Made by a program: the position numbers and the translations under genes
Virus record (IMG/VR): IMGVR_UViG_3300030450_002234
Location: 1 to 23,693 of that record
DNA: 23,693 nucleotides
Direction: 5' to 3' (one strand)
Source: a virus
The notes under the pieces: generated by a model
The model's database searches: none
The model's input: the letters and a program-made list of their open reading frames with translations, nothing else
Told to the model about the DNA's origin: nothing
Shown: in pieces, positions 2,274-18,229 of the stretch
Numbering within the stretch: position 1 is the stretch's first letter
Layout of the letters: each line of letters begins with the position of its first letter

Positions 2274-3037
2274 TATTTATCAAATCCTTTCAATGGATAG
2301 AATATCAGGCTATTTCTATAACCACCCTCTGAATGTGGAATGATAGGCGAAACTCCATGAACATTTTTCCAAGCAGGATAACATATCATAGAATTGTCAG
2401 CACATTCAATAGTAAGCCCATAATCTGGAACATCTAAATAACCACCTTCTGAATCAAATCTTTTAGAAAATATAACATTTACTGTATCTTTTAAGTTACC
2501 TGTATCTCTATGATAATTAGCAGATATATTATAATTAGATATTGAACTTGTGAATAGGTCGCTAAACTTCCATTTTTTTGCTGTATTTTCATTCATTACT
2601 TGTTTCTGTTTTTTATATATTTTAGGTAAATGTTTTTTAATTAATGTTTCTGATTCTCTACAAAGAAGCATCATTGCTTTTATAAAGTTTTTTGCTTTTT
2701 TCTTTTGATGAACTGATGATATGCTTGGATAAGGTCGCCTGTTTTGTGGTCTTGGTAATACCGATCCTAATATTGTAGAAAATTGTTTAACCCCATTTCC
2801 CTCTTTTTGTCCAGAAGTTCTGCCCATAACAGATTTAGGAACATTATCACTTCTAAATTCTTTATTTGATATTTCAAGAAGTTGTTTCATCTTACCATTA
2901 ATGCTTTTGATATAAAATCCAACAGGCTCACCATCTATTGTAAATAAAGTATCTTCTGTAATGTTCGCAGTTTTATTGCAACATTTATCTCCTACTTTTA
3001 TATCGTGTTTAATATATTTCATTTCTAACTTATTCAT
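2273..3037 (-). CDS. 2-oxoglutarate/Fe(II) dioxygenase, TET/JBP-like candidate
   Basis: I start this at the ATG at 3037, giving 254 aa. It overlaps the TAA of the FkbM gene by a few bases; a longer frame upstream would run deep into that gene. The C-terminal half reads as a double-stranded beta-helix oxygenase: an HxD motif in NYHRDTGN (H176, D178), then GGYLDVPDYGLTIECADNS, the distal histidine in NVHGV (H227), and an arginine in YRNSLIFYP (R241) placed to bind 2-oxoglutarate. The order of these motifs resembles the TET/JBP group, which oxidises 5-methylpyrimidines in DNA, including phage members acting on 5-methylcytosine. The N-terminal ~150 residues are basic and helical and I do not recognise them. 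Two C5-cytosine methyltransferases lie within 5 kb, which would supply substrate. The oxygenase fold is well supported; the DNA-base substrate is inference, and a protein or small-molecule hydroxylase remains possible. Confidence 0.75.
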   Translation of the reverse strand: MNKLEMKYIKHDIKVGDKCCNKTANITEDTLFTIDGEPVGFYIKSINGKMKQLLEISNKEFRSDNVPKSVMGRTSGQKEGNGVKQFSTILGSVLPRPQNRRPYPSISSVHQKKKAKNFIKAMMLLCRESETLIKKHLPKIYKKQKQVMNENTAKKWKFSDLFTSSISNYNISANYHRDTGNLKDTVNVIFSKRFDSEGGYLDVPDYGLTIECADNSMICYPAWKNVHGVSPIIPHSEGGYRNSLIFYPLKGFDK

Positions 3038-3719
3038 AACAATATACATTATCTGCTTTTGGAAACACCCAATCTGGACATTCGTAATCTGGCAGTTTAT
3101 AAATTCCATTATTATATTTAATATTTTCGTAATGGCTTTTCATTTTATCAACAATATTCCTGTACCTTAACATTCTTTTATCAATATCTAAACTCCATTC
3201 AAATACCATCTTTTCAGGAAATACTTTCATATCTTCTAATATATCCATTTCAGCACCCTCTATATCCATCTTCACAAAAGAATCTTTTTTTATAACTTTT
3301 TCATAATGAATACAATCTACTGAAAATTTTTCATTACCCCAATCTTTATACAGGCTATTCCTCCAAGTTTGGTTATTATTTCCAACATACATTGTCATCT
3401 TTTTTTTATCATTTGCAACTACTGCTCTTTGAAATATGTTAGCATTAAAATTATTTACCTTTAAATTCTTTTCAATCATCTTACAACTGAATGGATCTGG
3501 CTCATAAATATCTACTGTCGCACCTTTTGATAAAGCAAGAACTGCAAAAGCACCTGCATTACCACCAAGATCAATCCAATGATCTCCCCTTTTAATTTTA
3601 AAATCTTTATTTCTTTCATATACATTTCTGACTATAACTTCTTCAAATGTTTTTTCATCAGAAGTTCCCTCTCTGACTAAAAATTTAATATCCTTATTAT
3701 TTTTTTGTTTTATAATCAT
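3030..3719 (-). CDS. FkbM-family SAM-dependent methyltransferase
   Basis: This 229-aa protein shows a Rossmann methyltransferase core. Motif I is DLGGNAGAFA from D50, the acidic end of strand 2 is YEPDP at 72-76, and MDIEGAE at 151-157 is the FkbM hallmark. FkbM enzymes typically O-methylate hydroxyl groups on sugars or natural products. Here it lies between a ParB-like gene and a TET/JBP-like oxygenase and overlaps both, so its substrate may be an oxidised DNA base or a sugar on it rather than a surface glycan. That is inference. A weak AGGG lies before the ATG. Lines I counted by hand in this gene are about 23-28% GC, lower than the terminase genes next door. No glycosyltransferase was seen nearby. 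Confidence 0.85.
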   Translation of the reverse strand: MIIKQKNNKDIKFLVREGTSDEKTFEEVIVRNVYERNKDFKIKRGDHWIDLGGNAGAFAVLALSKGATVDIYEPDPFSCKMIEKNLKVNNFNANIFQRAVVANDKKKMTMYVGNNNQTWRNSLYKDWGNEKFSVDCIHYEKVIKKDSFVKMDIEGAEMDILEDMKVFPEKMVFEWSLDIDKRMLRYRNIVDKMKSHYENIKYNNGIYKLPDYECPDWVFPKADNVYCYE

Positions 3720-4569: not shown

Positions 4570-4987
4570 CTTCTTCAATAATGACTATCTCTGTTCTAGG
4601 TTTATCTGAATAAAGTTTTTCTGCGTATATGGTATATACTTGATTGTCATCAAGGAAGAACCCATTATGACCACTTAAACTATCTAAAACATATTTTATA
4701 AGATTATCAATATCAGGCTTCTTGGTATGTGGGATCTTAATCCATTGGTCTTTAACTATACCCTCATATTTGCCTGTTCTATAATGGCTTTTTGGTCGCT
4801 TCATGTAGAATTTGATGCTTATATGGATTGCGTTTAATAATGGAAGATGATTAAAACTTTTGTTATAGTTATAATCTTTTAATGCTTTTGTTAGAAATTT
4901 TTCTTTATCTTTTTTGCAGGGGTCGTATGTTCCGAATTTGAAGTGTCGGTGTCTTTGTTGTGGAATTGGATTGCCTTGAATTTCCAA
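4553..4987 (-). CDS. rusA: RusA-like Holliday junction resolvase
   Basis: This is a RusA-type endodeoxyribonuclease of about 144-148 aa. Visible hallmarks are the N-terminal strand with GNPIPQQRHR, the central strand IHISIKFYMKRP, the catalytic segment KKPDIDNLIKYVLDSLSG (D92, D94 by this numbering), and FFLDDNQV with D113/D114. These fit the metal-binding aspartates of E. coli RusA. It resolves branched DNA before packaging and works with recombination proteins such as the ERF-like gene upstream. The coordinate given uses a TTG start, the only standard start codon in the open frame. The ribosome site AAGGAG is about 20 bases upstream of it, however, and sits instead 8 bases before an ATC at 4999 (see findings). 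The first strand of the fold would then be complete. The family call is firm; the start is not. Confidence 0.9.
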   Translation of the reverse strand: MEIQGNPIPQQRHRHFKFGTYDPCKKDKEKFLTKALKDYNYNKSFNHLPLLNAIHISIKFYMKRPKSHYRTGKYEGIVKDQWIKIPHTKKPDIDNLIKYVLDSLSGHNGFFLDDNQVYTIYAEKLYSDKPRTEIVIIEEDEVKN

Positions 4988-4998
4988 TACTATTTGGA

Positions 4999-5070
4999 TT
5001 ACTTTATCTCCTTACCGATTAAATAGCCTAAAATGAATGCTAAAACCCAACCAATAATATATACAATCAT
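4999..5070 (-). CDS. 23-aa single-pass membrane mini-protein
   Basis: I read an ATG at 5070 and a TAA at 4999-5001, giving MIVYIIGWVLAFILGYLIGK plus EIK. It is nearly all transmembrane helix with a small-residue face (GWVLAFILGYLIG) and a positively charged end. It lies between a two-helix membrane protein and rusA, and its last codons contain the AAGGAG that probably serves rusA. Its own ribosome site is weak. It may be a real membrane peptide or a leader that couples translation of rusA. Confidence 0.45.
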   Translation of the reverse strand: MIVYIIGWVLAFILGYLIGKEIK

Positions 5071-5088
5071 TATGCTTAAAATCAATTA

Positions 5089-5286
5089 TTAATCTATTCT
5101 CCCATTGAAGAAACTAAAAACCCAATTTGCAATATCTTTTATTAAAAACATTGCTGCGAATACTAATATTAATGAAAATACAAAGATAAATATATATCTT
5201 ATATTCTCAACAAGTAGTATAGTCAATGTCCCTGCTACCAAAAATACTAGAATTAATACTAATGCTCCTATCCATTTTAATATCAT
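5089..5286 (-). CDS. Two-helix small membrane protein
   Basis: This 65-aa protein has two predicted membrane helices: about residues 5-26 (GALVLILVFLVAGTLTILLV) and about 30-50 (YIFIFVFSLILVFAAMFLI). It ends in a short soluble tail with NWVFSFFNGRID. Its ATG overlaps the TGA of the second cytosine methyltransferase (ATGA), with GGGAT upstream. Size and topology would suit a holin or an inner-membrane host-takeover peptide. No lysis enzyme lies next to it, so I do not assign a function. Confidence 0.65.
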   Translation of the reverse strand: MILKWIGALVLILVFLVAGTLTILLVENIRYIFIFVFSLILVFAAMFLIKDIANWVFSFFNGRID

Positions 5287-5894
5287 TTTATCCCTTTCAA
5301 TATTTCTTCACATAATTCTCTTGGAACTTTACTCTTTTCATAAGCATTTTTCATTCCCTGTGTTCCTGATCGAGAACCTCTTGGTGCTATTTCATGATGA
5401 CAATTTCTGTTTCCATTATGACACATTTGTCTTGGAATCCAACACATATCATTTGTCCATATATCTGTGGGTTTCATTCTGTTATCTCCATATTTACAAT
5501 AACATACTGTATTTCTAATTGGTACAGATTGAATTACAGATAATTTTCTTAATTTACCTCTTGGATTTTCAATATAATATTTTGGATTCAATTCATTTAT
5601 TATATCTAATGTTTTTTGCACAATTTTAACACCATGTACTGCTTGAAATGTTTTTGGTGTATGGTCTTTATTCCAATGATGTCCTATTGATGAAACACTA
5701 AAATATGTACAAGGTGGTGATGCCCAAATAATATCAGGCTTAAATGGAATCTTACTTATATCAAAGTCGAATATATCACAGACTTGGTCAATTTTATCAA
5801 ATGCTTTAAAATCACTTGTATATGTTTCATATCCCAATTCTTCTGCAACCTTTGAGAATGACCTGGATCCTGCAAATAATTCTAATACTTTCAT
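5283..5894 (-). CDS. Small C5-cytosine DNA methyltransferase (copy 2)
   Basis: This 203-aa protein carries the core of C5-cytosine methyltransferases. Motif I is LELFAGSRSFSKVAEELGY at residues 4-22, the catalytic Cys motif is ASPPCTYFS with C62, and the ENP triplet (Motif VI type) is at 109-111 in YYIENPRGK. CYCKYGDNRMKPTDIWTN follows, as in small phage Dcm-like enzymes. The C-terminal region is Cys/His-containing (MCHNGNRNCHHE) and could hold a metal. It is about 200 residues, shorter than full Dcm or M.HhaI enzymes, so the target-recognition region is minimal. It overlaps a zinc-ribbon gene upstream and a membrane gene downstream. It would methylate cytosine in phage DNA, evading host restriction or providing 5mC for the dioxygenase at 2273-3037. 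The sequence specificity cannot be read. Confidence 0.85.
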   Translation of the reverse strand: MKVLELFAGSRSFSKVAEELGYETYTSDFKAFDKIDQVCDIFDFDISKIPFKPDIIWASPPCTYFSVSSIGHHWNKDHTPKTFQAVHGVKIVQKTLDIINELNPKYYIENPRGKLRKLSVIQSVPIRNTVCYCKYGDNRMKPTDIWTNDMCWIPRQMCHNGNRNCHHEIAPRGSRSGTQGMKNAYEKSKVPRELCEEILKGIK

Positions 5895-6240: not shown

Positions 6241-6423
6241 CTATTTTATGTATTTATCCACTAATTTTTTGCCTATGTATAATACTGCAATAACACCTAC
6301 TATTGATATAATATCTATAAAATGATTTCCTGAATCTGATTCTAATTTTCCTATTGGCGTTTCAATAGATACTTTTTTTGATTGTAATGTTGTGTCTAAT
6401 GTATTAATTGGTTTTGGTTTCAT
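6241..6423 (-). CDS. 60-aa protein with C-terminal membrane helix
   Basis: The N-terminal 35 residues are polar (MKPKPINTLDTTLQSKKVSI), followed by a membrane helix IDIISIVGVIAVLYIGKKL and a lysine-rich end. AAGGAG precedes the ATG, which overlaps the end of the methyltransferase gene (TAA/ATG). The first codons and initiation region repeat those of that methyltransferase (ATGAAACCAAA), which may reflect local duplication. It may be a tail-anchored inner-membrane protein. Function unknown. Confidence 0.65.
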   Translation of the reverse strand: MKPKPINTLDTTLQSKKVSIETPIGKLESDSGNHFIDIISIVGVIAVLYIGKKLVDKYIK

Positions 6424-7019
6424 TTGTTCTCCTTAAAAAATGCTTTTGCAAATCCCTGTGGTGTCATTGACCTTCTCTCTAATCTTGTATATTTACCATA
6501 GTATTCAGGGTGTATTTCTTTACTTTTCATTCTGTCAAATTTAGGCATATCACATTCTATTGGGTTTTTTGTAGGAAAATTAAACCAACCCCATAGACAA
6601 GTTAATTTTTTATAATTATCACCAAAATCATAGGGATTAAATTCATAACAAGGTTTACCCAAAAATCTTTTGAGCAATCCTTTTGGATTCTCTAATGCCC
6701 AAAATTTCAAAGAAGTAGTTTTGGCATAAGGACTAATTAATTCATATTGTGCTTCTGCTATTATTCTCAAACAATGATTAACTATCTCATACGCACTTTT
6801 TAGATCTCTTGGTTTCCCTGTTGTTTTAGCAAAACTAAATTGATCACAAGGTGGTGCTGCCAAGATACCATAAACATTTTTAGGGGGAGTGTAATCTCTA
6901 ACATCATTTTCAGGTAGCGTAATCAATCTAACATCATACCCTGCTTCTTTATATGGCTTACTCCAAGACCCTGTACCACCACATAAATCTAATATAATCT
7001 TATCTTTGTTTGGTTTCAT
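6420..7019 (-). CDS. Small C5-cytosine DNA methyltransferase (copy 1)
   Basis: This 199-aa protein has Motif I IILDLCGGTGSWS (D11 onward), the catalytic PPC loop AAPPCDQFSFA with C58, and WALENPKGLL with ENP at 110-112. NPYDFGDNYKKLTCLWGWF follows, the FGD..KKTCLW signature of phage Dcm-type cytosine methylases. Like its neighbour at 5283-5894 it is about 200 aa and lacks an evident large recognition domain. The two share only the core motifs, so they are distant relatives, perhaps with different target sites. Its ATG overlaps the TGA of the nuclease-like gene upstream. It adds a methyl group to cytosine C5 in DNA. Possible roles are restriction evasion or making 5mC for further oxidation. 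Confidence 0.85.
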   Translation of the reverse strand: MKPNKDKIILDLCGGTGSWSKPYKEAGYDVRLITLPENDVRDYTPPKNVYGILAAPPCDQFSFAKTTGKPRDLKSAYEIVNHCLRIIAEAQYELISPYAKTTSLKFWALENPKGLLKRFLGKPCYEFNPYDFGDNYKKLTCLWGWFNFPTKNPIECDMPKFDRMKSKEIHPEYYGKYTRLERRSMTPQGFAKAFFKENK

Positions 7020-10879: not shown

Positions 10880-11027
10880 TAATGTAGGAATGTGTCTTTT
10901 CTACGGAAATAAGTCTTTTATTTAAATGGAAACTAAATTCCTCAATGCGTTCTACTTTTTCTTTTATGAACTCACAATCTTTGGAAATTTGTATTAGCAT
11001 ATATTTTAAATCATCATTTTTGGGCAT
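10812..11027 (-). CDS. XhlA-like small membrane protein (holin accessory candidate)
   Basis: This 71-aa protein has a charged amphipathic N-terminal half (KYMLIQISKDCEFIKEKVER), continuing to about residue 45, then one C-terminal membrane helix, GGFYVFIATSSIILALSTII. A coiled coil followed by a single terminal helix is the XhlA layout, a partner of holins in some phages. The ATG overlaps the TAA of the tail gene upstream (TAATG). It ends the late block, which is a usual site for lysis genes. No endolysin is next to it, so the lysis role is tentative; a tail-associated membrane anchor is another option. Confidence 0.65.
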   Translation of the reverse strand: MPKNDDLKYMLIQISKDCEFIKEKVERIEEFSFHLNKRLISVEKTHSYIKGGFYVFIATSSIILALSTIIK

Positions 11028-12094
11028 TAATAACTCTCACGCAACTTTAATCTTAAATTATACAATTCAGGTGCTTTTTGTTTAATGGGAAAATCTTTCT
11101 GATCAAAACGACATATTGCCCATTGGTCAGGATTATAATTTGGATCTGAATCATTTGGTAGGAATATAAATGGTAAATGTGAACCCTGAACCCTGTTTAG
11201 TACTCTTGCAAAAAATGATTGTGATTCTACAATACTTTTATTATCATTATCTATAAATTCAGTTTGATAATAATCCAAAGATTCAATTTCAGGCATTAAA
11301 TCTGATGGAGATAAATAACTAAAATTCATACTCCAATTTCTTCTGCCTAATGTTCTTTGTTTTGTTCTGTCTGGGTGATTTGCAGAGTAATCCGAACCAG
11401 ACAATTCCCAAGCATAATTATTTGCCCAATATGTCCCACCTCTTGTATATGAAGCATTAGATAATGTTGCTCCACCTTTTGTTTTTATATTTTTAACACC
11501 ATCATATTCTCGTTTCATTTCAAGGGATAAATCTGGACTATGTGGTGGATTCCATTTGCTGCACAATGAAACACACCCTAATTTGACTATGTCATTAACA
11601 GCATCAGAAAATCCTCTTATTCTTATTTTAAAAGCATCTGCAACAATGTCGGTATTATATTTTAATTTTACTATTGAGAATCCATTATAATCAGGTCGTG
11701 CAAAAGAACTATTATAATTTATTATTTCTTCTGTTATTATTGGAGAATACCAAATATCATTATCATAAAGATCCCTCATTTCAATCTCAATACTACAATT
11801 TCTTGTCCTAAAATTATGTCCTAAAATAAATAAATATACAAAGCCATTTTCATCTGCAATCCCTGAATAAGTATAATAATCTTCCAATTCTATTGTATAA
11901 CCTATTTGTGATGTACCCCAATTAAAAAAATCAGGAAATCCTTCACTTGCATTAATGGTATGTGTTTTAGTAGGATTTAATAAATGTACATCATTCCAAT
12001 TATGATTTTGATATTTAATTTGACCAATACTTTGAAGATAATCAAAAATTGGTATAAAAAATGCAGGTTTTTTAGTATTACTATATTTAGCCAT
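11027..12094 (-). CDS. Distal tail / baseplate-like structural protein
   Basis: This 355-aa protein begins MAKYSNTKKPAFFIPIFDYL. It is rich in Tyr, Asn, Ser and Trp, has many short beta strands and no membrane segment. Motifs seen include NWGTSQIGYTIELEDYY, RRNWSMNFSYLSPSDL and FARVLNRVQGSHLPFIFLP. The second half resembles the end of distal tail proteins, where a segment of the kind WSMNFSYL..SD..P.....Y is followed by a final strand. It lies after the tail hub and an unknown tail gene, with a TAATG overlap on both sides and AGGAGG for its start. It is likely part of the tail tip. The exact position cannot be fixed from sequence. Confidence 0.65.
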   Translation of the reverse strand: MAKYSNTKKPAFFIPIFDYLQSIGQIKYQNHNWNDVHLLNPTKTHTINASEGFPDFFNWGTSQIGYTIELEDYYTYSGIADENGFVYLFILGHNFRTRNCSIEIEMRDLYDNDIWYSPIITEEIINYNSSFARPDYNGFSIVKLKYNTDIVADAFKIRIRGFSDAVNDIVKLGCVSLCSKWNPPHSPDLSLEMKREYDGVKNIKTKGGATLSNASYTRGGTYWANNYAWELSGSDYSANHPDRTKQRTLGRRNWSMNFSYLSPSDLMPEIESLDYYQTEFIDNDNKSIVESQSFFARVLNRVQGSHLPFIFLPNDSDPNYNPDQWAICRFDQKDFPIKQKAPELYNLRLKLRESY

Positions 12095-12633
12095 TAATAG
12101 CCACCTCCTGTTTGCATTGCTCTGCTTATTGTTTTTAATCTTCTACTATCTGGGGTTTTACCAAAAATAGAATTTACATCAACCTTTTTCCCATCTTTGT
12201 TGTAGATATTTTTATTTAAAAAAGTTGTCTTTATTTTATTTGGGATTTCTCCATAAATATGATTTTTATTTAAATCCTCAATATTAGTGTTTTCAGAATC
12301 AAAATTATTATCAACTAAATCAAATCTATCATTTCTATATATAGGAATTAATGGTACTTTGTTCATAGCATCTGTAATTGCTTGACAAGACCTTACAAGT
12401 AAACTCCCTGTATATTTTAAAAATGGTTCTTTCCCAAGTTTAGATCCAAAACCAACACCAATAACTCTATTATCATTATAAAACATCATAAAATTATGTA
12501 TATCATAAGATTCTAATTCATAAATTCCTGACAATTCCATATCAAATCCAATTATTGATTCACCCATACGAATACTCATATCCCCATTGTATATATCAAT
12601 AGCCTGTCTTGTATTTATTTTGCTATAACTCAT
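12094..12633 (-). CDS. Tail-associated hypothetical protein
   Basis: This 179-aa protein lies between the hub and the distal tail gene. The first two thirds look beta-rich (IRMGESIIGFDMELSGIYEL, MMFYNDNRVIGVGFGSKLG). The last third is Asn/Lys-rich and ends AMQTGGGY, where the codons form the AGGAGG ribosome site of the next gene. No enzyme motif is visible. By position it should be a small tail-tip or assembly protein. Ribosome site GAGGAAACAATATG is good. I do not recognise the family. Confidence 0.65.
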   Translation of the reverse strand: MSYSKINTRQAIDIYNGDMSIRMGESIIGFDMELSGIYELESYDIHNFMMFYNDNRVIGVGFGSKLGKEPFLKYTGSLLVRSCQAITDAMNKVPLIPIYRNDRFDLVDNNFDSENTNIEDLNKNHIYGEIPNKIKTTFLNKNIYNKDGKKVDVNSIFGKTPDSRRLKTISRAMQTGGGY

Positions 12634-12650
12634 ATTGTTTCCTCATCAAA

Positions 12651-15600
12651 TTAACCATACATTATAAAATTAACCAATAAAACAACATCTTGTATATTTA
12701 ATTCATTATCATTATTATAATCAACTTCTGGATCATATTCTCCATCAATTAACATATTTATAAGAATAAGCACATCAAGTATACCAAGTTGCTGATTAAA
12801 ATCTTCTGGTGGTTGTGTAAGCAACCAAGTAGAAAGATTAGAATAATAAGTTAATTTTAAATCTGACAATGATGTTGGCGTATAATATGGGTATAATTTA
12901 AGTTGAAAATCAAAATGTGATGGGTGTGAAGTATCACCTATAACCCAAAGTAAATCAAGATTGTTCTGGATTCCTGTTGTAGAATTAATAACATAATTAT
13001 CACTTGCATTTGGGTTTGTGTATATTTGGACATAATCCCACAATGGGTTGCTCTTGTACAAAACCCACCCTAATTCAAGTTCTGAACCATTTGCATTAAT
13101 TTGATGTGGAATTTCAACAGTTTCTGGATTAAAAGCATTTGAATCAAATGGCGTAGATTTAATATTTCTTAAAGAATATATATAATGGCTATCATTATTT
13201 TTCATTCTTAATTCCATTGCAACAAAATTACCTATGCTACTATTAGTCCACCCTGTTGTAATTGAACCATATCCACTACCATCTGAATTTTTAGCAGGGA
13301 TTAGATCCTCTAAACGTAAAATATCAAAATTATTAATTGATACTATTTTACTCATATTATTGTGAAAATTACCACCTGATATTATATCACTATCATCAGA
13401 AAATCCCTCTAAATTTTCATTATCAGCAATATAAAAACTTCTTTCATAAGATGATATATAATCAACACCTTCATCTGATGTAAAAGCACTATCATAACCA
13501 ATTAACATTTGTTGTGTATAAGTAGCAGTTGGTGGATCATATATATCAAGAAAATCATAATCCTCATCAGTAAATTCAGAATACATTGGGTCTATCCAAT
13601 TAGCATTTGGGAAAAAACTACCACTCCAAAATGAATTATAATATTTAATATCTACATAAGGATCTGTCAAGTTATATTTAGGAGCATCTAATATATGCAA
13701 CTGATAACAAGATACTTTTATTTTATCTAAACTTCTTTGAACCTCTGTAACTAAAAACAAAGGTAATCTTACCATTCCACCATGTGCAATAGGATTAGTA
13801 TAATCCATTCCATAGGCTTTTAAATTATCTAAAAGTTCATCTTTTGGGAATTTAATAAGTGAACCAACCTCTAATTCATTATATTGTAATGGAAGTTGTA
13901 AATCAACAACTAAATGTTGCACTTTCCCATTCAAATATTTCTTTTTCTTTAATTTTACTGCTGTTTCTTTATCTTGTATATATTTTGTTTCAAAAACAAC
14001 TTTATTATCTTCACTATCATCAATATTATTAAATTTCATTACAGGTTGTCCAGATTCTAAACCCATGTCAGCAATATCACTTTGATCATCAAAATAAGCA
14101 TCTTCTGCTTTTATAATTTTAGAAAGTTTATCTGTTGCATAATCAAAACCATATTGTATATCAAGTTTAGAAATTATGTCATTAGCAGAAGTCAATTTAA
14201 AGTTATAATTGATTATATCAATACTTTCTATTTGTTTTGCATCTACATAATCTTCTTCTAAATATGTTCTCTGTAAAGTTACCCAACCAAAATCTCCATT
14301 ATTCTTTAATCTCGGAAAAGACATGGTTGATTGTGAAATATCTTCTATTAATTTTTTAGAATTAATTTTATCTGTAACTGAAAAAGCAAATCTCCATCTA
14401 TGATGCTCTCTCCATGCTTTAAGATATTCATCACTATCAAACCTTGTTACCCCTAATTCATATCTTAAAATATCCCTCATTATATCTATTGGATTCTCCA
14501 AATAATCTGTTTGTTCTGGTGCATAATTATCATCATGGTCAATATCCAATATAGGAGAAGTCCTCCCATTAACATTTAAAAAATAATCTAATGATTGAGC
14601 CTTGTCATATTCAACTAATGATGTGCAATCTATTTCATTGATATTCATCTCCAAGAAATAATCATAAGTTCTTTGAACAGTCCAATTCCCATAATTATCC
14701 ATTTCACTATAACCTATTCCCAACAAATCAATACAATAATAATTTGCAGGTTGTTTTGCAAAGTTGTTTGAACTCTTTCCCATGTGGAATCGTAAAGCAG
14801 GACAAACGTCCATTGGTATATCATCAACTGAATTAAATTCATTCAATAAATTCTTAAATTTAATTTTAGCATTATCATTCCAGAGATATGATACACTTGA
14901 TAAATTTGGGTTTTCCCAAGTAGTTGGTGGAGTATTAGCATCTTGTCCATGCTTTCCAGACATAGTAAATAATGCTCTTACATCTTCATATTCATTGATT
15001 GAGATTGATTGATGACTTATATCAATATCCTCATGGGGAAAATAATCGTCCTCTCCATGCGTATAATTGTACCAAGAATTGTCAAATTGCTCTAAAAGGA
15101 CATCTCCATTATCTGGTAGAACCCATAATTGATCTTGATTATCCAACCATTTACCATAAGCATTTGGAACAACTGCATCACCGGGAACAGGTAATTTTAA
15201 GCCATCTATTGTCGTGCGTAATAACCTTGAAAATTTTGCATCTGATGGGTTTACTTCCCAAGACAAAATATAAACATGAACAGCATCAGATTTTACGTTG
15301 TGATGTGTACTAAAAATATGCTTAATAAAATATGCTTGGTTATCATCTAAACTGTAACCTGTTGCAGAATCATTGTCTGTCAAACTGAAATAAGCAACAT
15401 CATCAATATAATTTACAGGACCATAAGGAGGCATATCCCCATGCTCATCATACCACCCAAAACCATCAGCACCGGCAGTCCCTTGATATGCACAAGTCCT
15501 TATTAAATTAACTCCACTTGGTTTATCAAAGATTAAACCTTGTATCCTATCTACTGACCACAATAAAGACCTGTTTATTTGTACTGAATTATCTCCACCA

Positions 15601-16538
15601 TGTTTATATTGATACCGAGTTGCATTATCAGATGGTATCGTAATATATTCTTCATTTAATTCTGTTTGATCTTCATCAGTAAATTGTTCTGTTACAAATT
15701 GATGAGCAACATATTTTAATAAACTTACATATCTCCCATCAAATGCTCTAATTGCACCTGTTATCCAACCATTTACAAGGTGTTCTCCCTCTGCTATATT
15801 TTCATTGTCAAAATAATATTCTTCATGTAATTGGCTAACATTCCTACTCCCATCTGCTCTAAATCTTAAATTCCCATCTATATAACTTGCAACAGCAGGT
15901 GCTTTCTCCATTCTCCCATAACACATAGGAATGACTTTACTTTTATATTTATCAGGTACATCATCAGTATCTCCCATGTATTCTGATGGTAAATCTTTAT
16001 GAATTTTTTTCTCTGTTAAATCTTCTAACCCAATAGTAAGTTTCTCATCAGTATGTTTGATTGACCTTATTTTACCAAAATATACATTCAAACAATCACT
16101 AACCCTTAATGTTGGACTAACATTTTGACCTGGCTGATGAACTTGCTGATTTACAGGGGTAATTGTAGTACATGATTGTGATTTTAGATATATAGATACA
16201 TTTTCATTCATTAATAAATTATTAGTAAATAAGTCGGATATTCTTGAACCATTATATTCTATATTGCTCAAACTTAATGTAACAGAAGATATTTGATATT
16301 TCCCTGATTCAATATTAATAGATTCTTTTAATTTTGGTAGATCCATCAATAATGGCTTACAATATATATTCCCACCATTACTTTTTTCTATATCTATATT
16401 GGTTGTAGAAAATCCTGAATAATCATATACATTTAAACCATTATCATCATGACCTATCCATTTTTCAATAATAACAATGGGAACTATTTGTGTATTCTTT
16501 GATAATACATCTTGTTTGAACGTATCAGATATAAACAT
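12651..16538 (-). CDS. Large tail hub/tip protein with C-terminal dockerin-like repeats
   Basis: This 1295-aa protein is the largest in the window. It follows the tape measure gene with a TAATG overlap, the place of the tail hub/tip attachment protein. The N-terminal ~230 residues (FISDTFKQDVLSKNTQIVPI, LPKLKESINIESGKYQISSV, TLRVSDCLNVYFGKI) read like the first domains of siphovirus tail-tip proteins. The middle is Asp/Tyr/Trp-rich and variable. A segment at about 770-940 has the alternating strands typical of hub domains. The last ~52 residues (1244-1295) are two EF-hand-like repeats: the second, DYNNDNELNIQDVVLLVNFI, has D1, N3, D5, E7 and D12 of a dockerin calcium loop; the first is degenerate. 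The protein probably binds the host surface, with calcium at the tip. Tail role firm by position; receptor role inferred. Confidence 0.75.
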   Translation of the reverse strand: MFISDTFKQDVLSKNTQIVPIVIIEKWIGHDDNGLNVYDYSGFSTTNIDIEKSNGGNIYCKPLLMDLPKLKESINIESGKYQISSVTLSLSNIEYNGSRISDLFTNNLLMNENVSIYLKSQSCTTITPVNQQVHQPGQNVSPTLRVSDCLNVYFGKIRSIKHTDEKLTIGLEDLTEKKIHKDLPSEYMGDTDDVPDKYKSKVIPMCYGRMEKAPAVASYIDGNLRFRADGSRNVSQLHEEYYFDNENIAEGEHLVNGWITGAIRAFDGRYVSLLKYVAHQFVTEQFTDEDQTELNEEYITIPSDNATRYQYKHGGDNSVQINRSLLWSVDRIQGLIFDKPSGVNLIRTCAYQGTAGADGFGWYDEHGDMPPYGPVNYIDDVAYFSLTDNDSATGYSLDDNQAYFIKHIFSTHHNVKSDAVHVYILSWEVNPSDAKFSRLLRTTIDGLKLPVPGDAVVPNAYGKWLDNQDQLWVLPDNGDVLLEQFDNSWYNYTHGEDDYFPHEDIDISHQSISINEYEDVRALFTMSGKHGQDANTPPTTWENPNLSSVSYLWNDNAKIKFKNLLNEFNSVDDIPMDVCPALRFHMGKSSNNFAKQPANYYCIDLLGIGYSEMDNYGNWTVQRTYDYFLEMNINEIDCTSLVEYDKAQSLDYFLNVNGRTSPILDIDHDDNYAPEQTDYLENPIDIMRDILRYELGVTRFDSDEYLKAWREHHRWRFAFSVTDKINSKKLIEDISQSTMSFPRLKNNGDFGWVTLQRTYLEEDYVDAKQIESIDIINYNFKLTSANDIISKLDIQYGFDYATDKLSKIIKAEDAYFDDQSDIADMGLESGQPVMKFNNIDDSEDNKVVFETKYIQDKETAVKLKKKKYLNGKVQHLVVDLQLPLQYNELEVGSLIKFPKDELLDNLKAYGMDYTNPIAHGGMVRLPLFLVTEVQRSLDKIKVSCYQLHILDAPKYNLTDPYVDIKYYNSFWSGSFFPNANWIDPMYSEFTDEDYDFLDIYDPPTATYTQQMLIGYDSAFTSDEGVDYISSYERSFYIADNENLEGFSDDSDIISGGNFHNNMSKIVSINNFDILRLEDLIPAKNSDGSGYGSITTGWTNSSIGNFVAMELRMKNNDSHYIYSLRNIKSTPFDSNAFNPETVEIPHQINANGSELELGWVLYKSNPLWDYVQIYTNPNASDNYVINSTTGIQNNLDLLWVIGDTSHPSHFDFQLKLYPYYTPTSLSDLKLTYYSNLSTWLLTQPPEDFNQQLGILDVLILINMLIDGEYDPEVDYNNDNELNIQDVVLLVNFIMYG

Positions 16539-18229
16539 TATATAATTTGACCCCTGCGTAATGCTTCTTTAATATGTGGAACAATCACATCTTCTGTATA
16601 AGATTCTGACATTACATTACCAGAGATTGTAACATTAATATTATTAGAAGTAGACATTGGCTCATCACCTGCATCTAATGGTGTAACAGTTACTAATTCC
16701 TGACCACTTGGATTATCTCCCACCATAATTGATTGAGCGCCTGCTGTTACAAAACTACCACCTTGTGCAAATGACATTTTAGGTGCAGGTATTTGATTAA
16801 TAAGTGATGTTATTAATTCATTCACTAAACCACCTGCTGCTCCTGCTAAAATCAAATTTAATGGAACAGGGAATTGTGCAAGTGCTTTTGCAGCATAACC
16901 TGCAACACCTTCCATGATATAACCCCTGATTGCATTTTGAATCCCTGCTCTTGCTGTTTGAGCGCCTTTTGCTGCATTTGCTATTTTCTTTTTTGTTAAA
17001 TCATCATCAGAATCACCTATTATTTTATTTGCATTTTCTTCTACTTTTGCCTCTTGGACAGGATCACCTTTTGCTTTTTTAATCTTTTTTGCATTATCCA
17101 ATATTGATTTCAACATTGCTTTTGTATCTTCATCTAATTGAGCCATTATTGCAGAAATTTCTGTACTCATATCAGTACCCAAGTCCACAAATGATGTTGA
17201 TAATGCTTCATTACTTGCAATTAGAGAATCAACTTTCTCATTCAGAAAATTTGCAACACCTTCACCGAATAAATCTCTAAACCCATCAATATACATTCTA
17301 ATTTGTGCAAAAAGTAAATCACCAACAGTTGGGAACATGAGATTCAAACCCTCTTTCATGCCTGTAATTAGAACAACACCAAGAATTTGACCCATTGCTC
17401 TTGCTGTAATCCTTGCTAATTCAGTTGCTGTTTCTAAATCCTCACTAATGGCTTGTGCTATATTTTCAAATCCTATCTCTCCTAATTTAGAAAATTCTGT
17501 ATTTATTGCATCTAATTTAGGCTTCAATACTTTTAATAATTCATCACCGATTGCTGCTTTTAATCTATCTACTCCATCTTGAAAATTGGAAACCATACCT
17601 GTCCAAGTTCCGGCCACTTGTGTTGTCATACCTGCGATACCAAGACTTGGATCTATCAAAGCCCTTTCCATTGCATCTCTAAATTCAGGTAATGTTAATT
17701 CACTTACATGTTCAACTCCTGCAAATGATGCTATTAGTGGGAGAACCCCTCTATCTCTCAACATATCTGCTGCACCTGCTCCACCTGCAAATGCTCTACC
17801 AAAAGCAGATGCTGCATCAACTACATCTACTCCCATAAATGCTGCTAAATCTGAAACAGGTTTAATCATTTCTTCTGCATCAGCACCGAATGATTTTAAA
17901 CTTACACCTGCTTCTACAACATTTTGAAGTTGGAATGGTGTTGTGGCTGCAACATCATTAAATGCTTTAAATGCCTGTGTTCCTCTTTGCACAGAACCAT
18001 ACATAACATTCAATCTGACCTTTAACATTTCAAATTGTGCTGCTGTATCAACTGATGCTTTTCCAATATTGAACAATGCTTTTCCTAACCCCATAGCACC
18101 CACAGCAACAGCAGTAGCACCTGCTGCAACAGTTAATCCTTTCATACTCCCAGAAAGTTTACCAATCTTGCTATTAGCAGAACTTAAACCTTTTGTCTTT
18201 GCTTCAATTATAAATGGAACTTTCGCCAT
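16538..18229 (-). CDS. Tape measure protein
   Basis: This 563-aa protein starts MAKVPFIIEAKTKGLSSANS and has a hydrophobic stretch at about 30-60 (GLTVAAGATAVAVGAMGLGK). It continues with the conserved tape-measure segment (QFEMLKVRLNVMYGSVQRG, then AATTPFQLQNVVEAGVSLKS, AFGRAFAGGAGAADMLRDRG). More hydrophobic helices appear near 285-300 and 450-475. It sets tail length and helps form the DNA channel. It follows the two tail chaperone frames (TAATG overlap), as is usual. At 563 residues it is short for a siphovirus; at about 0.15 nm per residue, a general rule, the tail would be near 85 nm. The C-terminal part is Gly/Ala-rich and ends in a beta-like region. Confidence 0.9.
   Translation of the reverse strand: MAKVPFIIEAKTKGLSSANSKIGKLSGSMKGLTVAAGATAVAVGAMGLGKALFNIGKASVDTAAQFEMLKVRLNVMYGSVQRGTQAFKAFNDVAATTPFQLQNVVEAGVSLKSFGADAEEMIKPVSDLAAFMGVDVVDAASAFGRAFAGGAGAADMLRDRGVLPLIASFAGVEHVSELTLPEFRDAMERALIDPSLGIAGMTTQVAGTWTGMVSNFQDGVDRLKAAIGDELLKVLKPKLDAINTEFSKLGEIGFENIAQAISEDLETATELARITARAMGQILGVVLITGMKEGLNLMFPTVGDLLFAQIRMYIDGFRDLFGEGVANFLNEKVDSLIASNEALSTSFVDLGTDMSTEISAIMAQLDEDTKAMLKSILDNAKKIKKAKGDPVQEAKVEENANKIIGDSDDDLTKKKIANAAKGAQTARAGIQNAIRGYIMEGVAGYAAKALAQFPVPLNLILAGAAGGLVNELITSLINQIPAPKMSFAQGGSFVTAGAQSIMVGDNPSGQELVTVTPLDAGDEPMSTSNNINVTISGNVMSESYTEDVIVPHIKEALRRGQII

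Follow-up and report, generated by a model that had tools for sequence, protein, structure and literature searches.

Dockerin–cohesin pairs are familiar as assemblers of enzyme complexes. The locus described here shares with the type I pairs of cellulosomes (C. cellulolyticum, 2vn5/2vn6, and C. thermocellum) the two-repeat dockerin at the C-terminus of one chain and the β-sandwich cohesin fold of the partner. It differs from them in that the two modules occur in a phage tail hub and in the product of the adjoining gene rather than in enzymes and scaffoldins, that the cohesin-like domain comprises about 100 residues compared with about 140 in cellulosomal cohesins, and that binding is predicted. 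The folds nearest to that of the phage protein include non-cellulosomal cohesins (C. perfringens sialidase 2vo8 and GH84C 2jh2; Archaeoglobus fulgidus 2xdh; Z 8.4–9.4), which are however modules of enzymes or of an archaeal protein and share only 11–15% identity with it. Tail hubs of the lambda gpJ and T4 gp27 type have the same hub domain fold as a modeled relative, but in lambda gpJ the part beyond it consists of FNIII-like domains and a receptor-binding tip instead of a dockerin. A further likeness is found in secreted proteins of Neomarinimicrobiota, which possess the same domains in the same order with a short linker and whose cohesin-like domain is strongly matched by the profile of the phage family: These proteins carry diverse N-terminal domains and end in a type A sorting domain of the type 9 secretion system (T9SS), whereas the phage hub terminates with the dockerin, a gene of its own usually encodes the cohesin-like part, and a distal tail gene comes next. 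From phages, an E. coli phage protein has been described whose named structural match is the carbohydrate-binding module of a cellulosome protein (PMC5967307), and gene 40 of a Vibrio phage resembles a dockerin protein (PMC3558961). Our survey of the literature, mainly open-access articles, returned no report of a dockerin–cohesin pair in a phage tail; as it covered few subscription papers, this absence is weak evidence.

The DNA analyzed is a stretch of 23,693 nucleotides (positions 1 to 23,693 of IMG/VR record IMGVR_UViG_3300030450_002234; hereafter the window) from a genome represented by a 30.7-kb fragment; all phage sequences considered in this work are metagenomic. The hub region of the window is composed as follows:

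16538..18229 (−): tape measure protein (PHROG 973 and others)
12651..16538 (−): tail tip or central hub gene, 1295 aa; an open reading frame adjoining the tape measure gene and homologous to hubs with gpJ/gp27/VgrG folds
13584..14507 (−): conserved hub domain, approximately residues 678–985 (alignment A1); gpJ/gp27-type by homology to the modeled relative G024
12654..12809 (−): C-terminal dockerin type I module, residues 1244–1295, two repeats; assigned by the relatives' profile, full dockerins lying at the same place in relatives
12774..12809 (−): first calcium loop PEDFNQQLGILD, degenerate in sequence, as are those of L080/L081 at the same place
12687..12722 (−): second calcium loop DYNNDNELNIQD, residues 1273–1284, canonical by sequence and loop pattern scan

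An initial annotation had proposed that two dockerin-type repeats, one with a complete and one with a degenerate EF-hand loop, end this hub. The last 52 residues, 1244–1295, read PEDFNQQLGILDVLILINMLIDGEYDPEVDYNNDNELNIQDVVLLVNFIMYG (window 12654–12809, followed by the stop codon at 12651–12653) and show the dockerin helix pattern in both repeats; the loop DYNNDNELNIQD keeps every usual EF-hand ligand position, and the ligand positions of PEDFNQQLGILD are lost. A search with PF00404, which the annotation had suggested as a check, yields 13.7 bits (E 0.075) for the window copy and thus remains under the Pfam cut-off of 22.9, so that the segment is unsafe as a dockerin call by itself. We therefore rely on a profile that was built from the C-termini of the relatives without the window sequence and that matches residues 1244–1293 of the window hub with 28.5 bits (E 1.1e-8), while the top score of a shuffle control (n = 200) was 21.9 bits and the second 6.5 bits. 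This score and the occurrence of two-loop dockerins at the corresponding position of homologous hubs raise the window dockerin above chance and confirm, at the level of sequence, that the hub terminates in a degenerate two-repeat dockerin, as proposed.

Relatives were collected via the large terminase, which led to 35 related viral contigs, and homologous hubs were found by a tail-protein search across 25 records. As direct queries of the viral collection, the window hub and the window dockerin retrieved no close relative in the group; none of 50,697 annotated phage records was matched by the window hub, the hub of L103 or two cohesin-like proteins, and a search with conserved hub peptides did not find the hub in GTDB genome contigs. 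PF00404 is matched by nine of the ten hubs in alignment A1 (best E 4e-11), at the position of the window segment, and the Phage-tail_3 family PF13550 by five of them; an example of a full dockerin at the C-terminus of a relative's hub is GDVNEDGLTNVMDVVAIVQSIIGNATLTDEQFELADVNFDGQVNILDTIIIVNRIVG. The same C-terminus, which the annotation had recommended looking for in related tail proteins, is widespread: Scanning the viral collection with a profile provided 54 hub loci, some of them near-copies or from one record, and 45 of the 50 with an intact C-terminus contain a dockerin scoring above 20 bits. According to the loop pattern, two canonical loops are present in 32 of the relatives' loci and one in 13. 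L097/L098 were initially candidates for dockerin-less exceptions and were rejected as such, as their dockerin is shifted to hub residues 110–176. No dockerin was detected in the hubs of L114/L115 and L120, and those of L119 and L124 contain weak traces only. The window and its closest relatives encode the hub as a single open reading frame; in the branch L062–L068 it is divided into two adjacent ones (~600 and 770–1120 aa).

Structural modeling was based on alignment A5; an earlier alignment, A4, split the dockerin repeats and was dropped. In the AlphaFold model of G024, a natural fusion, residues 1–310 resemble the lambda gpJ hub 8xcg (VIA-align Z 13.3), residues 320–376 the C. cellulolyticum dockerin 2vn5_B (Z 9.9, rmsd 1.3 Å, 56/56 residues), and residues 389–488 cohesins (2vo8, Z 9.2 over 99 residues; 2jh2, Z 9.0). 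The conserved domain of the homologous hubs matches the folds of lambda gpJ, T4 gp27 and VgrG. The dockerin fold is hence predicted for this relative, and the modeled hub fold together with the position after the tape measure gene points to a tail hub of the gpJ/gp27 type, which agrees with the earlier claim that the module ends a tail hub. That the segment is merely an EF-hand-like sequence that arose by chance without dockerin ancestry could be argued from the window's own score under the Pfam cut-off; the significant scores of dozens of relatives at the same position and the dockerin fold at 1.3 Å in one of them leave this explanation virtually no probability, and we rule it out.

The annotation further suggested that the dockerin might attach a separate receptor-binding protein, and that a cohesin should be sought in the missing part of the genome or in candidate hosts. 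A cohesin-fold gene, which had been overlooked, instead lies next door at 12094–12633:

12634..12650 (−): 17-nt gap between the hub stop and the next start, with the Shine–Dalgarno-like sequence GAGGAAAC
12094..12633 (−): tail protein of 179 aa with a cohesin fold, proposed as the dockerin's partner (AlphaFold model mc6eb33ae7c5c, PDB matches and conserved adjacency)
12310..12615 (−): cohesin-like β-sandwich core, residues 7–108 (aligned range of the VIA-align matches)
11027..12094 (−): distal tail protein of 355 aa, encoded by the third gene of the cassette, which is conserved; relatives show the same order, and a weak homologue directly follows the dockerin-less hub in Neomarinimicrobiota proviruses

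The model of the 179-aa protein predicts the cohesin fold, that of a nine-stranded β-sandwich: Its best 20 PDB matches are all cohesins (Z 9.4–8.0; 2vo8 9.4, 2jh2 9.2, 5nrk 9.1), and the best non-cohesin match is YcnI (Z 7.9), although Z values of 8–9 are moderate for a small β-sandwich. A PF00963 search of ten members of the phage family gave no match, and neither did a direct hhalign comparison of the family with host cohesins give a significant one. As the connection to cohesins by sequence needs a host domain as bridge (see below), we call the family cohesin-like rather than cohesin. A member follows the hub directly in 47 loci and is fused to it in two more, which amounts to 49 of 49 testable loci; in the fusions, G013 (= L067/L099) and G024 (= L068/L095), it is located right after the dockerin. 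A LamG/ConA-like lectin domain (PF13385, E 1.8e-23) is joined to the cohesin-like tail protein in L109 (5386–6957, +), and other relatives have glycine-rich tails on this protein. The lectin-bearing protein of L109 would fit a receptor-binding adaptor. The annotation's separate receptor-binding protein has thereby gained a candidate in the adjoining gene, whose attachment by the dockerin we infer.

The bacterial dockerins closest to that of L103 belong to Candidatus Neomarinimicrobiota, with up to 61% identity. Seven genomes of this phylum contain 17–112 dockerin matches and 1–7 PF00963 cohesin matches each, so that cohesins are indeed present in the likely hosts. The profile of the phage cohesin-like family has matches in 22 of 245 Neomarinimicrobiota genomes (best E 2.5e-21, up to 13 copies per genome), in none of 296 Bacteroidota genomes, and in none of 13 other dockerin-bearing genomes. 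In each of the ten best host loci, one chain comprises an N-terminal domain, a dockerin, a short linker, the cohesin-like domain and a T9SS-type C-terminus, and the sorting domain (PF18962 and TIGR04183) was confirmed in all six host proteins tested. By hhalign, the phage family is related to the host cohesin-like domain with 99.7% probability (E 5e-26), which in turn is related to Pfam-recognized host cohesins with 86.7% (E 4e-6) and thus constitutes the required bridge. These profile links and the tandem order in the host proteins identify the phage pair with the host tandem, mostly split into two genes. Because the unit is also found in secreted proteins of Neomarinimicrobiota, the phages probably borrowed dockerin and cohesin-like domain from their hosts for the construction or anchoring of the tail tip. 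A tree of the cohesin-like domains from phages and hosts did not distinguish one acquisition from two. Two features of the bacterial proteins may be added. L235, L237 and L239 (Neomarinimicrobiota) combine an intradiol dioxygenase-like domain with dockerin, cohesin-like domain and T9SS tail (PF00775 confirmed in L235), which is an odd cargo for dockerins to carry. L209, L210, L213, L215, L223 and L224 encode, between MurA-like and TrkA-like genes (named by eye), a conserved cohesin protein of ~250 aa with a sorting-like C-terminus, which may serve this dockerin-rich phylum as a surface anchor.

Three Neomarinimicrobiota genomes contain proviruses whose tail cassette is related (hub profile E down to 1.4e-38); among the remaining matches of this profile in the phylum, most align to the dockerin part only. 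In two of the three proviruses, the hub ends at the point where a dockerin would start (...IQLHDLS) and is directly followed by a weak homologue of the 355-aa distal protein of the window, and neither a dockerin nor a cohesin-like gene was detected in any of the three. The pair consequently has the appearance of having been added between the hub and the distal protein. From the shared module and from these proviruses we infer Neomarinimicrobiota as hosts; three terminase matches in the phylum (32–34%) were set aside as host evidence, being not diagnostic by themselves.

How might the phages use the pair? We give somewhat better than even credence to the reading that a host surface-protein module was captured or is shared, and that the cohesin-like subunit is kept in the tail tip by the dockerin of the hub. 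In this siphophage-like tail, every hub chain would end in a calcium-loaded dockerin that grips the subunit, and the subunit in turn would carry or present the distal parts: the lectin-like domain in one relative, the glycine-rich tails in others. Dockerin and cohesin-like partner would have been taken from, or be common with, secreted proteins of Neomarinimicrobiota, in which the pair directly precedes the T9SS sorting domain. Both proteins would accordingly be constituents of the virion and bind each other in a calcium-requiring manner. This reading is derived from the adjacency without exception, from fusion and splitting of the two parts, from their joint retention after the dockerin had moved, and from the lectin of L109. 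It is weakened by the five loci in which the neighbor is kept although the dockerin is missing (L114/L115, L120) or weak (L119, L124), and by the loss of one of the two calcium loops in the window dockerin. Moreover, cellulosomal adaptors that bear both a dockerin and a cohesin usually do not bind themselves; as the host domains adjoin in cis and such adaptors seldom self-bind, the two phage modules need not be each other's partners.

The dockerin of the tail might instead bind cohesins on the host surface, or the phage cohesin-like protein host dockerins, or both, thereby mediating adsorption, a role that the annotation had likewise envisaged for a host cohesin-like protein. The suggestion is kept alive by the likely host phylum, which abounds in dockerins and possesses cohesins, as seen in the seven genomes above, and it is in line with the presence of as many as 13 cohesin-like domains in a genome, with the six loci encoding the ~250-aa cohesin with its sorting-like C-terminus, and with the placement of adsorption proteins at the tail tip. 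It is an alternative to be taken seriously, which we nevertheless regard as unlikely, with the docking hypothetical and the host assignment indirect: A phage-encoded cohesin-fold gene next door in every testable locus would be superfluous for docking to the host, and the dockerins diverge and drop loops in some phages. The gripping of the phage's own subunit and docking to the host can both occur, at different stages.

The cis arrangement of the host domains with their short linker, the persisting fusion in two phages and the degenerate loop of the window dockerin would also suit a captured rigid block or spacer, similar to an X-dockerin unit, in which canonical binding plays no part and calcium is just stabilizing. 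We consider such a purely structural role improbable, as the two parts are separate polypeptides in most phages and so need an interface that holds them, and as L097/L098 have relocated the dockerin within the hub and yet retained both it and the cohesin-like neighbor.

If the pair holds the tail tip together as we favor, and is used in the virion, it would represent a new way of building a phage tail tip from ready-made, calcium-dependent, swappable parts. A broader version, which we put forward tentatively and hold to be rather doubtful, is that a large group of uncultured marine phages employs an exchangeable calcium-dependent tail-tip coupling derived from surface proteins of Neomarinimicrobiota, thereby swapping receptor-binding parts and possibly joining the dockerin–cohesin network of the host when adsorbing. 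The module ties dozens of marine phage contigs to this abundant uncultured phylum and draws attention to the phylum's own large and little-studied dockerin system.

Two observations lie apart from the tail cassette. The viral contig L070 (IMGVR_UViG_3300020470_005312), apparently from a different phage, encodes at 4782–5834 (−) a protein of 350 aa in which a tail of ~60 aa comes after two canonical dockerin repeats; other long cysteine-rich open reading frames are located nearby, the tail-protein search gave no hub match on this contig, and it is apparently a second, separate viral use of dockerins. In the window itself, an FkbM-like gene of methyltransferase appearance and two further methyltransferase-looking genes, recognized by eye only, are located at 3030–3719 (−), 5283–5894 (−) and 6420–7019 (−).
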